55,494 bases of DNA from Bacteroidota bacterium (GTDB lineage Bacteria > Bacteroidota > Ignavibacteria > Kapaibacteriales > UBA961): positions 1 through 55,494 of the forward strand of contig JAFDZU010000044.1 of NCBI GenBank assembly GCA_018266765.1, in the 5' to 3' direction. Under the pieces are notes generated by a model. That model was not told the DNA's origin and made no database searches. It saw only the letters and a program-made list of their open reading frames with translations. The translations under genes were made by a program, and so were the position numbers. This document shows positions 1,597 to 48,807 of the stretch, one piece after another (position 1 is the first letter of the stretch; the number at the start of each line of letters is the position of its first letter).

Positions 1597-2652
1597 ATGA
1601 AGCTGTTTCGACTCCGTAACATCGTTATTGTTATTGTACTGTTATTGGTTGCAGGTCTGTATTATTTCAAACCGACTTCACCATCGAAGCCAGCATTTCT
1701 TGGTAAAAAAACAGTGTCGGATGTTACTGTTGGTATTACGGTTGCCACGCCAAAGCAAATTGACAGCAAAGTTCGTATAGGTGGCACTTTGCTTGCTTAT
1801 CGTGAGGCGGAACTCCATGCCGAATCAAGTGGAAATGTTGTTAGTTTTACCTTGCCCGAAGGTGAATCGGTTAAACAAGGAACTCTTCTTGTGAAAATTA
1901 ATGATGCTGAACTTCAAGCCCAACTTGCCAAAAATACCGAGCAAATTCGCCACGCCGAAGAAATTGAAACTCGGCAAAAAGCATTACTGAATCGAGGAGG
2001 TGCGAGCCGCGAAGAATACGAAGCCGCACTTAATTCACTCAATATTTTTAAATCCGAAAAACAGCTTTTGCTAGCGCAAATTGCCAAAACCGAAATTCGT
2101 GCTCCGTTCGATGGTGTTATCGGATTAAAATATGTTACAATCGGAACATACATAACTCCTGCAAGCAAAATTATTTCGATAATCCAATCCGACCCAATGA
2201 AACTCGAATGTTCTGTTCCAGATAAATATGCATTGTTTCTGAAAAAAGGACGTTCGCTGACCTTCCTTACTCGTGGAAGTACCAAACGATTTACTGCAAC
2301 TATCTATGCAGTTGACCAAAAAATTGACCTTGCTACGAGAACAATTGCTTTTCGTGCCGGTGTAGAAAATTCAACGGATGAACTGACCGCTGGAAGTTTT
2401 ATTGAGGTGGAATTACCAATCGGGCAAACGCACGAAGGATTGATGGTGCCTACGGAATCAGTCATTGCCGATATTAAAGGTCAAAAAGTGTTTGTGTATA
2501 AAAATGGCAAAGCCGAACCACGTCCGATTGTTATGGGAATTCGTACCGAAAACGAAGTAGAGATTCTCAAAGGAATTCAAGCGGGAGATACGGTGATTAC
2601 ATCCGGCGTGATGCAAGTAAAACCCAATAGTCCGGTTGTGATTGCCCTGTAG
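1597..2652 (+). CDS. RND efflux periplasmic adaptor (HlyD/AcrA family), orphan
   Basis: This 351-residue membrane fusion protein would bridge an inner-membrane pump and an outer-membrane channel. An N-terminal hydrophobic anchor spans residues ~8-24. It is followed by a biotinyl-lipoyl-like half motif near 65-100, a short helical hairpin (~100-155), the typical second half motif IRAPFDGVIG at ~167-176, and a beta-barrel and membrane-proximal domain ending in GDTVITSGVMQV. The length is normal for the family. The pump gene that usually follows directly is absent: the next gene is on the other strand 50 bases away. The adaptor either works with a pump encoded elsewhere or is a remnant of a dismantled operon. 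The frame is intact, which favours the first. The upstream gap 1363-1596 separates it from the divergent TPR gene, and I saw no clear promoter there. Confidence 0.9.
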   Translation: MKLFRLRNIVIVIVLLLVAGLYYFKPTSPSKPAFLGKKTVSDVTVGITVATPKQIDSKVRIGGTLLAYREAELHAESSGNVVSFTLPEGESVKQGTLLVKINDAELQAQLAKNTEQIRHAEEIETRQKALLNRGGASREEYEAALNSLNIFKSEKQLLLAQIAKTEIRAPFDGVIGLKYVTIGTYITPASKIISIIQSDPMKLECSVPDKYALFLKKGRSLTFLTRGSTKRFTATIYAVDQKIDLATRTIAFRAGVENSTDELTAGSFIEVELPIGQTHEGLMVPTESVIADIKGQKVFVYKNGKAEPRPIVMGIRTENEVEILKGIQAGDTVITSGVMQVKPNSPVVIAL

Positions 2653-2703
2653 AAAATGTAATAATCTATTGTGAACTATATATCTATGTGGTTAAAAAAT
2701 CAA

Positions 2704-4599
2704 TTACTTGTATTTATCTAACGAAGCATAAATATTATCACTCGCAGAAATCCCCATTTTCTTGCGGAGACTGTGCCGGTGGGATTCTACCGTTCGTTGT
2801 GATAGAAACAGCACCGAAGCCATATTCGACGAACTGAGTTTCATTCTGATAAGTGCGGCGATTTTCAGTTCCATTGTGGTTAATTCAGGGAATGAATCTT
2901 GGAGTTTCTTCATAAATGTGCCATGAACATCCACCCATTGTTTATCTAATTCACTGATAGTTTCGAGTTTTGCAATACTGCGGGTTACGCGGTCGTGAAG
3001 CTGTTCGACATACTGAATACCCTCGCCTCTGGTAAATGGTCTTATTTTTTTGATGCTCGACTGAACCAATTGAAGCAGGTTGTTTTTCTTGATAATTTCT
3101 TGAAGGGAAGTGTCTAATTCACGGGTTTGAGATTCAATTTTAATCTGCATGTTCATCTTTTCGGCTTCTGTTTTGAGGAGTTCGATTTCCTTTTGTTTTT
3201 CCATGTCGGCAATTTTGCGTTCCCAACCGAATTTATCTGCTTGTTTTTTTACTTCTTCGTTTTGAATTTCGATGTAGAGTTCGTGATATTTTTCGATATG
3301 AGTAGCATATTCTTCCCAACGCTTTTCTTGTTTGTAGAGGTCTGCAAGGTACTTTTCAAATTGATAACGATATAATGTAGCACCAAGTTCTCCATAATTA
3401 CTAATAGTCCCAAGAAAATATTCCTCTGCTTTTTGAGGATTGTACCCTGAAAATAGCGGATTAGAATAGACTAAGCCTATAATTCCTTTCGTTCCGGCTT
3501 CTTCTTCTCTTCTGCCAAATTCCTCCAACACTATTAATGCTTCTTCTAAATAGTTTAATGCATTTTCAAATTCTGAAATATCATAATATGCTTTCCCAAG
3601 ATTACTCGCAAAGATAGCAGTGTCTACTGCTAGATTGAGTTCTTGACTTAGTACATATGCTTTTTGTAAATATTCTATTGCTCGAGGATAATCTAACATT
3701 TGGCTGTAAGTAATTCCGATATTTCCCATGAACATGGCCACTCCGCCTTTCATACCAAGTTCTTGGTGCATGACAACAGATTTTTCAAGATATTCGATAG
3801 CCCTCGGGAAATCAGAAAGATTGCGGTAGGTTACACCTATATTACCGAGGATAATAGCTTTATTGGAAAGTATGCCCAGTTCATCATAGACACCAATTGC
3901 TTTTTCATAGTATTCGAGTGCACTGTGGTAGTCGGCAATATCTCTGTAGGCACTTCCGATATTACCGAAGACAGTACCTGTTTCGGGTAAGTTATTGAAT
4001 TCCTGGTGAATAGCAACTGCTTGATGATAATATTCGAGTGCTTTGAAATAGTCAGACTGAACATGATATATTGTTCCGATATTTCCCCAAATAATTGCTA
4101 TATTCTTTTTTAGGCCTAGAGTTGTGAATTCCTCAATTGCCTTGCTGTAATATTCAAGTGCTGTTGCCTGTTGCGAAAGATAGGAGTAAACCAATCCCAG
4201 GTTAAGATTAGAACTTGCAACACCCATTTTGATATTCAGATGCCGGTAAATTTCCAGCGCATGAAGAAAATGTGTTGTTGCCTGTGAATAATCCGCAGTT
4301 TTGAGACATACCAAACCCAAAACTAAAAGTGAATTAGCGCGCTCTTCTGTAGAATTCGGTTGAAGAGAAAGTGATTTTTTAGCATTGGGTAATGCTTGTG
4401 TATAGAGCCCGCGTTTTAAGAAAGAATCAGCATGAATCCGGTAGGCAACTGTAAGTATTTCGGTTTGTTCGTTGCATTCAAGAGAAGTTACATCTGCATT
4501 AATGATTGTTGATGACAACTGCTCTGCATTATGATATTCATTAGAGGTCATCGCTTCTTTTGCCTGCTCCAGAATCTCTTCGATTTCTTGCTTAGTCAT
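2704..4599 (-). CDS. TPR sensor with C-terminal LuxR-type HTH (paralogue A)
   Basis: I chose the ATG at 4599 (631 residues) over an upstream TTG because its leader matches that of the paralogue starting at 10555. About eight 40-residue TPR units fill residues ~85-400. A coiled coil (~445-505, with FGWERKIADMEKQKEIELL) and a linker helix follow. A LuxR/GerE helix-turn-helix lies at ~570-625 (LTTMELKIAALIRMKLSSSN, then LSQRTVESHRHSLRKKMGI). There is no receiver, kinase or membrane domain. By family knowledge the TPR region should sense a protein or peptide partner and the HTH should bind DNA, so this is probably a cytoplasmic transcription regulator. It is divergent from the large T9SS gene at 4789, a plausible target. 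From ~residue 439 on it is nearly identical to the regulator at 8786-10555. Confidence 0.88.
   Translation of the reverse strand: MTKQEIEEILEQAKEAMTSNEYHNAEQLSSTIINADVTSLECNEQTEILTVAYRIHADSFLKRGLYTQALPNAKKSLSLQPNSTEERANSLLVLGLVCLKTADYSQATTHFLHALEIYRHLNIKMGVASSNLNLGLVYSYLSQQATALEYYSKAIEEFTTLGLKKNIAIIWGNIGTIYHVQSDYFKALEYYHQAVAIHQEFNNLPETGTVFGNIGSAYRDIADYHSALEYYEKAIGVYDELGILSNKAIILGNIGVTYRNLSDFPRAIEYLEKSVVMHQELGMKGGVAMFMGNIGITYSQMLDYPRAIEYLQKAYVLSQELNLAVDTAIFASNLGKAYYDISEFENALNYLEEALIVLEEFGRREEEAGTKGIIGLVYSNPLFSGYNPQKAEEYFLGTISNYGELGATLYRYQFEKYLADLYKQEKRWEEYATHIEKYHELYIEIQNEEVKKQADKFGWERKIADMEKQKEIELLKTEAEKMNMQIKIESQTRELDTSLQEIIKKNNLLQLVQSSIKKIRPFTRGEGIQYVEQLHDRVTRSIAKLETISELDKQWVDVHGTFMKKLQDSFPELTTMELKIAALIRMKLSSSNMASVLFLSQRTVESHRHSLRKKMGISASDNIYASLDKYK
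2730..3284 (-). repeat. Dispersed duplicated coding segment, copy A (coiled coil plus HTH)
   Basis: About 555 bp that are nearly identical, by eye, to 8819-9374 in the same orientation. Within the encoded stretch LYIE...DNIY (184 residues) I count five amino acid differences. Similarity stops close to the stop codon and fades abruptly upstream where the TPR region begins, so the duplicated unit is the output half of the gene, not the whole gene. Confidence 0.9.
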
Positions 4600-46618: not shown

Positions 46619-48301
46619 ATGAATAAACTCATACTCGGTGATAACCTCGAAATCCTCAAACAAATCAATAGCGAATCCATTGACCTTGTCTATCTCGACC
46701 CGCCCTTCTTCTCCAATAGAAATTATGAAGTGATATGGGGTGACGAAGGCGAAATTCGTTCCTTCCAAGACCGATGGAGTGGTGGGATGGATCATTATAT
46801 CGCTTGGCTCAAAGAACGGACTGCCGAAATGCACCGTATCTTAAAAAATACCGGAAGTATCTTTCTCCATTGCGACTGGCACGCTAACGCTTACATTCGA
46901 GTGGAGATTCTTGATAAGATTTTTGGACTAAATAATCTTAGAAATGAAATTATTTGGAAACGAGCAGAAACAATTAAAGGTAATTTCGGGCAAGGAAAGA
47001 AATCTTTAGATTATAATACGGATACAATTTTTCATTATTCCAAATCAACCATTACTACATTTAATCAACCATTCAAAAAATACGAAGAAAAATACTTAGA
47101 ACAATTTTACAAATATCAAGAATCAGATGGTCGTAAATATAGGTTAATCAGCATGATAGGTCCTGGTGGAGAATCTAAAGGTAATCCACAATATGAATTC
47201 CTTGGAGTGACTAAATTCTGGCGTTATTCCAAAACCAAAATGCAAGAACTATTTGACAATGGTATGATTATTCAAACTAATCCAGGTACAGTTCCTCAAA
47301 GAAAACAATATCTAGATGAATGTAAAGGTGTTGCAATACAAAATCTGTGGGATGATGTATTTGCACTTTCCGGAACATCAAAAGAAGCAATCGGCTATCC
47401 AACTCAAAAGCCGGAAGCATTACTTGACAGAATAATCAAAATGGCAAGCAACGAAGGAGATACCGTTCTCGACCCATTCGTCGGTGGTGGAACAACGATA
47501 GCCGTAGCCGAGAAGCTCAATAGAAATTGGATAGGAATAGACCAATCAGTCCAAGCAGTTAAAGTAACAGAGTTTCGACTGAACAGCCAGCAAAACCTTT
47601 TTAGTCAGCCGTTTATCGTTCAGCTTCACAAATACGACTACGACACCTTGCGCTACAAAGACGCATTTGAATTTGAGAGTTGGATTATCACACAATACGA
47701 AGGTCAGCCACAAAATAAAAAAGGTGGCGACAAAGGAATTGACGGCAAAACAAAAGACGGCTCGCCTATTCAAGTGAAACGCTCGGACGATATTGGACGC
47801 AATGTTATAGATAATTTCCTTTCGGCTATCCAACGCGACGACAAACGAACCTACGAACTCCATAAAGCCGACAACAAACCGGTAGGATATATTATCGCAT
47901 TTTCTTTTGGCAAAGGAGCAATTCAAGAAGTTGCTCGTCTCAAAAACCAAGAAGATGTCATTATCAAATTAGTTCGAGTGGATGAGATAGTTCCCATTGC
48001 AAAAAAACCGACAATAACAGTAGAAGTCAATGAAATCGGACGAGACAAAAAAGACATTCGAGAAATAGAATTTACGGCAGAAGGACAAAGTCCGGCAGGA
48101 ATAGAGTTTTTCAGTTGGGATTTTGATTACAACGAAAAGGATGGATTCAAGCCCGAAATAATCATAGATAAAATTGGAAAGCAACAGCATAAATTCAAAG
48201 CAGGACAGCACATCATCGCCGTTAAAGTAGTTGATAATGATGGTTTAGACAACATCGAACTCATAAAATTGAAAGTGAACGGAAAAGTTGAGAGGAAATG
48301 A
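46619..48301 (+). CDS. DNA methyltransferase / Mrr-like nuclease / PKD-like domain fusion
   Basis: 560 residues in three parts. (1) A beta-class adenine or N4-cytosine methyltransferase (1-~320), with catalytic DPPF at 27-30 first and the SAM-binding DPFVGGGTT near 285-293 later, and a target recognition region between. (2) An Mrr-like PD-(D/E)xK nuclease domain (~340-455), with GGDKGIDGKT and PIQVKRSDD giving the D...QxK site. (3) Residues ~463-555 look like a PKD domain: FFSWDFDYNEKDG, HKFKAGQHIIAVKVVDNDGL, IKLKVNG. Methyltransferase-Mrr fusions are known as one-protein restriction-modification enzymes; the PKD-like end is unexpected, since PKD folds are mostly extracellular. No signal peptide is present. 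No separate restriction or specificity gene is adjacent. Confidence 0.88.
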   Translation: MNKLILGDNLEILKQINSESIDLVYLDPPFFSNRNYEVIWGDEGEIRSFQDRWSGGMDHYIAWLKERTAEMHRILKNTGSIFLHCDWHANAYIRVEILDKIFGLNNLRNEIIWKRAETIKGNFGQGKKSLDYNTDTIFHYSKSTITTFNQPFKKYEEKYLEQFYKYQESDGRKYRLISMIGPGGESKGNPQYEFLGVTKFWRYSKTKMQELFDNGMIIQTNPGTVPQRKQYLDECKGVAIQNLWDDVFALSGTSKEAIGYPTQKPEALLDRIIKMASNEGDTVLDPFVGGGTTIAVAEKLNRNWIGIDQSVQAVKVTEFRLNSQQNLFSQPFIVQLHKYDYDTLRYKDAFEFESWIITQYEGQPQNKKGGDKGIDGKTKDGSPIQVKRSDDIGRNVIDNFLSAIQRDDKRTYELHKADNKPVGYIIAFSFGKGAIQEVARLKNQEDVIIKLVRVDEIVPIAKKPTITVEVNEIGRDKKDIREIEFTAEGQSPAGIEFFSWDFDYNEKDGFKPEIIIDKIGKQQHKFKAGQHIIAVKVVDNDGLDNIELIKLKVNGKVERK

Positions 48302-48395: not shown

Positions 48396-48436
48396 GGACT
48401 GGCTAAAAGAACACCATCAGCTCCGTCAGGGGCGCA

Positions 48437-48562
48437 ATATCGGTAGAAAACAACGCCACCACCTCGCTTCCAAGAGTTCCGTTAGGAACGTAATATCTCC
48501 TTTGAATTGTTCCACCCTTACAGGGCTTGAATTCAGAGTGAGAAATAATTTTCTACCGATAT
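48437..48562. repeat. Element bounded by a 14-bp inverted repeat
   Basis: ATATCGGTAGAAAA (48437-48450) and its exact complement TTTTCTACCGATAT (48549-48562) enclose 98 bases that hold a smaller palindrome. No transposase is present. It could be a miniature mobile element or a structured RNA. Confidence 0.6.
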
Positions 48563-48664
48563 GTATTCCCTACGGGAAAAAAGAATTGGTGATGATTGTG
48601 TTCCTACAAACAGGACACCCCCAATGGAGCTTGGTTTGGCTTTGGCTGTTCACGTTTCTACAAG

Positions 48665-48698
48665 CAGTTTGCTCCTAACGGAGCATTTATAATTCCGT
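48665..48698 (+). repeat. 34-bp direct repeat, copy 1
   Basis: CAGTTTGCTCCTAACGGAGC followed by a 14-base tail ending ATTCCGT. It contains the palindrome GCTCC-TAAC-GGAGC. Copy 2 differs at three positions. Confidence 0.75.
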
Positions 48699-48755
48699 AG
48701 GAATGTTCTGATTGTAGCACAGAGAGCACAGATACAAATTTCACATTCCAACTAA

Positions 48756-48789
48756 CAGTTTGCTCCTATCGGAGCATCTTTAATTCCGT
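48756..48789 (+). repeat. 34-bp direct repeat, copy 2
   Basis: CAGTTTGCTCCTATCGGAGC followed by a 14-base tail ending ATTCCGT; 31 of 34 positions match copy 1, which starts 91 bp upstream. The stem GCTCC/GGAGC is kept while the loop changes, as expected of a structured repeat. Confidence 0.75.
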
Positions 48790-48807
48790 CAATTCTCAAA
48801 AATGCCG

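Follow-up and report, generated by a model that had tools for sequence, protein, structure and literature searches.

The window considered here is a stretch of 55,494 nucleotides (contig JAFDZU010000044.1 of assembly GCA_018266765.1) from a member of the Bacteroidota (Ignavibacteria; Kapaibacteriales; UBA961), and the gene in question lies on its forward strand at positions 46619-48301. It encodes a single chain in which a DNA methyltransferase (MTase) with an internal target-recognition domain (TRD) is followed by an Mrr-type nuclease domain and by an immunoglobulin-like (Ig-like) sandwich that resembles PKD domains. Comparison with its relatives suggests that the protein is probably an autonomous one-chain restriction-modification (RM) enzyme, Type IIC-like, of the beta class and with a C-terminal nuclease.

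Domain layout of the gene

The open reading frame and the motifs that the earlier note had recognised in it (DPPF, FVGGGTT and GIDG...QVK) are exactly as that note described, and the parts of the gene are arranged as follows:

46619-48301, + strand: whole gene, single-chain MTase-Mrr-PKD protein of 560 amino acids; ATG start, with start and end conserved in the family
46619-46933, + strand: N-terminal half of the MTase, residues 1-105, with catalytic motif IV DPPF (Pfam N6_N4_Mtase)
46697-46708, + strand: motif IV DPPF, residues 27-30; DPPF in 71 of the 71 alignment rows with letters there
46934-47353, + strand: TRD, residues 106-245, hypervariable among members (mean pairwise identity 0.345)
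47354-47608, + strand: C-terminal half of the MTase, residues 246-330, with motif X GYPTQKP and motif I DPFVGGGTT
47621-48004, + strand: Mrr-type PD-(D/E)XK nuclease domain, residues 335-462, with catalytic E353, D375, Q385 and K387 (conservation, Mrr_cat, VIA)
48005-48286, + strand: PKD-like Ig sandwich, residues 463-556 (AF2, Foldseek, VIA)

The Pfam family N6_N4_Mtase covers residues 21-317 of the window protein (E 2.4e-46), with DPFVGGGTT at residues 285-293, and the motif order IV-TRD-X-I identifies the MTase as beta class. The nuclease signature E353...GID375G...Q385VK387, in which GIDG occupies residues 373-376 and QVK residues 385-387, is the Mrr-type PD-(D/E)XK pattern, and Pfam Mrr_cat matches 29 of 52 homologues with a best E of 5e-5. 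When the window protein is searched alone with Pfam, NCBIfam and PADLOC the MTase is the sole part named, and Pfam gives no match to PKD at E<1.

The C-terminal fold was identified from an AlphaFold2 (AF2) model of residues 330-560, built with 52 family members. Its mean predicted local distance difference test score (pLDDT) is 87.5, rising to approximately 92 over most of the C-terminal sandwich, and the strands of the sandwich (E135-E229 of the modelled piece) mostly score above 90. Comparison of this model with the PDB by Foldseek places PKD domains in all of the first five positions, the best match being collagenase G (ColG, 4aqo; E 3.1e-4, probability 1.00, target TM 0.72), and VIA aligns the same structure with Z 9.4 over 78 residues at 2.1 Å. 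Other Ig-like folds score nearly equally in VIA, where Z alone cannot tell PKD from neighbouring folds. A PKD fold is nonetheless favoured among them by the sequence-aware Foldseek ranking and by the pattern SWDF...G.H.IAVKVVDNDGL in the modelled domain (SWDF at residues 499-502, HKFKAG at 524-529, VVDNDGL at 537-543). Pfam PKD or PKD_4 gives weak matches in 4-5 of the 52 members (E 0.016-0.026). Because the domain is conserved across 74 near-full-length homologues, a chance resemblance can be ruled out. Sequence comparison and the structural matches agree with the earlier note, both in placing MTase, Mrr nuclease and PKD-like fold in one chain and in reading the final 95 or so residues as a PKD fold; a fold unlike PKD was not seen.

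Conserved active sites, variable target recognition and spread

None of the nuclease residues E353, D375, Q385 and K387 varies among the 74 near-full-length homologues, which were found with search patterns that excluded these four positions. The MTase half carrying motif IV has a mean pairwise identity of 0.80, the half carrying motifs X and I 0.73, the Mrr domain 0.71 and the PKD domain 0.61, compared with the far lower value of the TRD given above. For the Mrr domain, four pairs of homologues give a ratio of nonsynonymous to synonymous substitution (dN/dS) of 0.03-0.09, the synonymous sites of a fifth pair being saturated, while the PKD domain gives 0.04-0.07 in five pairs, indicating strong purifying selection. 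Two loci from the same metagenome, L021 and L022, share 93-94% identity in the Mrr domain and in the motif IV half of the MTase, compared with 43% in the TRD; everything outside the TRD ranges from 0.84 to 0.94 against 0.43 within it, the TRD having been swapped between near neighbours. A variable TRD set between constant domains, together with a protected nuclease site, is the usual mark expected of an RM enzyme that changes its specificity, and the sequences of this family appear to carry it.

Several loci hold additional genes of the same type. MTase-only copies lie directly upstream of the full-length gene at L093 (4972-5997 and 6038-6952), L070 (5896-6789) and L107 (5493-6527), their DNA being approximately 92-96% identical on either side of a TRD that is unmatched, except that the L070 copy is 84% identical after the TRD. 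Such copies may serve as a reserve of specificities or as accompanying methylases. At L086 two family genes lie tail to tail (3-1580 on the + strand and 1718-3265 on the - strand), their DNA being approximately 81-86% identical in parts that exclude the TRD, and this pair could recombine and so swap TRDs. A search of the window gene for phase-variation tracts found one A7 run only.

When the Mrr and PKD part was scanned against approximately 85,000 species genomes it matched 190 loci, and the family loci analysed here are the best-scoring 80 of these, in which that part matched end to end at 61-75% identity. They come from at least six phyla (Bacteroidota, Spirochaetota, Planctomycetota, Pseudomonadota, Chloroflexota and Elusimicrobiota), and their hosts include insect-gut Treponema, members of the Thiotrichales, Chromatiaceae and Methylococcaceae, and one Chloroflexaceae genome. 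Within the phylum of the window the family is rare and patchy (4 of 395 sampled genomes), and this patchy presence combined with the identity across phyla points to horizontal spread. Distribution over phyla and phage contigs fits a mobile defence gene. The phage contigs with copies of the enzyme are L022 (IMGVR_UViG_3300028327_000316), L021 and L111, the gene on L022 adjoining those for major head, protease and portal proteins, and prophage copies also exist. A tblastn search of plasmids with the C-terminal domain (CTD) alone gave zero matches. The PKD part that the earlier note had singled out is thus real, but it is not a special addition to this gene: it is carried by the best 80 of the 190 loci, and to that extent it is simply the standard C-terminus of an MTase-Mrr subfamily.

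No partner gene recurs beside the enzyme. Clustering of neighbouring open reading frames at 83 loci revealed no gene family, besides the enzyme itself, near more than 10 of them. Queries with a Res helicase and a small nuclease of the sister systems described below, and with a Res of a third group, gave zero tblastn matches in the window and 86 family loci. At least 2.5 kb of DNA flanks the gene on both sides in 40 of the 74 homologues. Both searches support the earlier note in its statement that a separate nuclease or specificity gene is missing.

Around the gene itself, an empty-site test found the genes beside murA to be wholly different in two congeners, with no clean insertion boundary. 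A congener carries tandem murA copies (G001:C22:1454-2713 and 2922-4181, locus L172), which match the window MurA at 88% (first copy) and 93% (second copy) identity. Just downstream of the gene lies a dispersed repeat (window 48410-48790), which carries ATATCGGTAGAAA twice, inverted, and has 15 genomic matches, its own copy counted.

Sister methyltransferases in Type III-like operons

Searching 296 genomes of the phylum with a profile of the PKD tail gave 17 places outside the family, two of them in secreted PKD proteins and the other 15 at the C-termini of MTases encoded beside a Res-type helicase. One group of such MTases, here T3a, comprises the Mod proteins of seven loci: L004, from the window's own genus, L123, and L151-L155, on viral contigs. 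Their homology to the one-chain family extends across the nuclease-like segment as well as the PKD tail (E 4.7e-9 and 2e-8 with hhalign). An independent model of the T3a tail matches PKD domains with Z up to 10.5, and the L151 Mod matches Pfam PKD_4 at E 1.8e-5 (25.2 bits, against a cut-off of 27). The fold of the nuclease-like segment rests on profile-profile homology, AF2 being unreliable there (pLDDT <50, 5 sequences). Within this segment E353, D375 and K387 are all replaced in each of the six aligned T3a Mods, and the replacement is itself conserved as IHG...VxVGxP. Profile alignments of the family with the Mods of two further groups, T3b (A6) and T3c (A7), matched only the last part.

The T3a operons appear to draw their cutting function from genes other than Mod. 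A ResIII helicase follows Mod in L004, L151, L152, L153 and L155, while in the L123 operon (L176) an AlbA-like gene stands between Mod and Res; the L004 contig breaks off close to where Res ends, and that of L154 immediately beyond Mod. In L151, L152, L153 and L155 the Res protein, of 664-673 amino acids, has no visible nuclease domain, and in these four of the seven loci it is followed by a separate nuclease of 115-117 amino acids that matches Tn7_TnsA-like_N (E 2e-13) and, more weakly, RE_endonuc:

L151, 5416-5760: separate small nuclease
L152, 7754-8104: separate small nuclease
L153, 4635-4982: separate small nuclease
L155, 7763-8110: separate small nuclease

The operon in these four viral-contig loci consists of three genes, which encode a Mod whose Mrr segment is dead and which ends in the PKD tail, then Res, then the small nuclease. 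In the T3b group Res itself bears a PD...ETK motif within its C-terminal part (L177, L178). Judged from these sequences, the nuclease site of Mod appears to be gone where a helicase system supplies the cutter and intact where there is no such system. What is new here is that sister Mods of Type III-like operons seem to keep the MTase-Mrr-PKD layout without any nuclease residue.

This pattern bears on the proposal that the window protein is a solitary derivative of a Type III Mod, which has lost its Res and now only methylates, its Mrr and PKD parts being relics and its role one of epigenetic regulation or protection of phage DNA. Such a protein would have the layout of the sister Mods and intact MTase motifs, as is found, and the copies borne by phages would suit it. 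We nevertheless consider it unlikely, for the nuclease residues are invariant, the nuclease domain is among the most conserved parts of the chain, and it is the Res-partnered sisters that have lost these residues, the reverse of what a relic would predict.

In a small, unrooted tree of the MTase core (190 columns and 49 rows, with TRD and tail left out) the one-chain family forms a single clade (100/99), with the T3a Mods as its sister (97/87) and MTase-Mrr fusions that have no PKD domain as the next clade (99/96). Provided that active sites, once lost, do not return, the dead nuclease of T3a derives from an active one. A tentative history, to which we give somewhat less than even weight, is that the common ancestor of the one-chain enzymes and some Type III-like systems was itself a single chain whose nuclease was active; the nuclease of the T3a Mods would have become structural after a helicase, with its nuclease fused or separate, took over cutting, and the window enzyme would retain the ancestral state.

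Probable working of the enzyme and proposed role of its PKD-like domain

In the arrangement that we favour for the one-chain RM enzyme, the TRD would recognise a short, probably asymmetric DNA site, at which the MTase would methylate adenine at N6 or cytosine at N4. The Mrr-type domain, of PD-QXK form, would cut sites left unmodified, and the enzyme's own methylation would block that cutting. Since there is one nuclease site per chain, two molecules would probably pair for a double-strand cut, as has been proposed for Type IIC enzymes (PMC4081073), and the PKD-like sandwich may hold the chain or the dimer in an arrangement competent for cutting.

For the sandwich, dimerisation or assembly is the favoured role, and it is probably a shared intracellular assembly module rather than a phage sensor. 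An assembly role fits better because the domain is kept in both the one-chain and the helicase-partnered forms, evolves slowly and has no net positive charge (17 K+R against 19 D+E). A different view is that the domain controls the nuclease by recognising a phage protein or DNA, making the chain a triggered defence protein, abortive or modification-sensing. Binding of proteins or sugars is a common function of PKD folds, and the CTD is less conserved than the Mrr domain, but its low dN/dS gives no sign of rapid change and the same domain ends the helicase-partnered Mods, so that we regard this as improbable. Of the roles floated in the earlier note, phage sensing accordingly finds no support, and DNA recognition is not suggested by the charge.

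Among the closest known systems are the Type IIC/IIG enzymes (BpuSI, MmeI, Eco57I), which share with the window enzyme the union of nuclease and MTase in one polypeptide, a single nuclease site per chain and a common specificity. Most Type IIC enzymes combine a gamma-class (NPPY) MTase with an N-terminal nuclease (PMC4081073, PMC3874165), whereas the window enzyme has a beta-class MTase, a C-terminal nuclease and then a PKD domain. BtgZI is an exception among them, with an N-terminal MTase and a C-terminal PD-D/EXK variant with Q for E, although its MTase is alpha class and no PKD domain is described there (PMC4081073). The Type III Mods (EcoP15I Mod, T3a) likewise have a beta-class MTase with an internal TRD, and in T3a Mods, as in the window enzyme, the Mrr-fold segment is followed by the PKD domain. 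The window enzyme differs from T3a in having no Res alongside, in its intact nuclease against IHG...VG.P, and in the want of an N-terminal extension: its chain starts at the MTase, where L004 has approximately 97 extra residues. In EcoP15I Mod the N-terminal domain dimerises and an alpha/beta CTD contacts Res (PMC4490356); this CTD was not recovered when the PDB was searched by sequence with the Mod profiles. Type III systems with N4-methylcytosine and a third, ATPase gene are also known (PMC8259958). Another related group is that of the MTase-Mrr fusions that have no PKD domain (L006, L011, L148, L157), in which a beta-class MTase is followed by Mrr_cat with D and K intact; their chains end soon after the nuclease and their MTase is approximately 35-45% identical. 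One of them, L157:2974-4620, is gp48 of Streptomyces phage Dwayne, annotated simply as a DNA methylase (Mrr_cat E 1.3e-7). A literature search found no description of an MTase-Mrr-PKD enzyme, nor of a beta-class Type IIC version with C-terminal Mrr and PKD, a weak negative as subscription papers were largely outside its coverage.

Some observations weigh against the one-chain RM reading. In the window protein Mrr_cat falls below the Pfam cut-off (E 0.0074); taking the best-scoring loci may under-represent members that have no PKD domain; and the tandem MTase-only companions at L070, L093 and L107 suggest that the enzyme may not always protect its sites unaided. Alternatively, the chain could be an enzyme that chiefly methylates, or a nuclease that depends on modification. 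The nuclease half of the model matches MspJI (Z 8.4), FokI (Z 8.3) and LlaBIII (Z 8.0) in VIA, each of them a PD-(D/E)XK restriction nuclease. The MspJI nuclease is modification-dependent, as is E. coli Mrr itself, whose type the window nuclease shares, while LlaBIII differs from the window enzyme in an extra motor and a different MTase. A Type IV-like, modification-dependent Mrr nuclease tethered to an MTase and cutting DNA with foreign methylation is very improbable even though the Type IV listing includes Mrr (PMC3874165), given that the attached TRD-bearing MTase diversifies its specificity as in host-protective RM and that the Mrr fold serves as an ordinary cutter in the Type ISP enzyme LlaBIII.

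If the one-chain RM reading is true, the family would represent a beta-class, C-terminal-nuclease counterpart of the known one-protein restriction enzymes, with an intracellular PKD fold, a kind of domain usually met outside cells. Together with the sister Mods it would provide a matched pair, one with a live nuclease and no helicase, the other with a dead nuclease, a helicase and in most cases a nuclease encoded separately, on which the origin of multi-subunit restriction systems and the role of non-catalytic Mod domains could be tested. A compact enzyme of this size with swappable TRDs may also be a source of new specificities.
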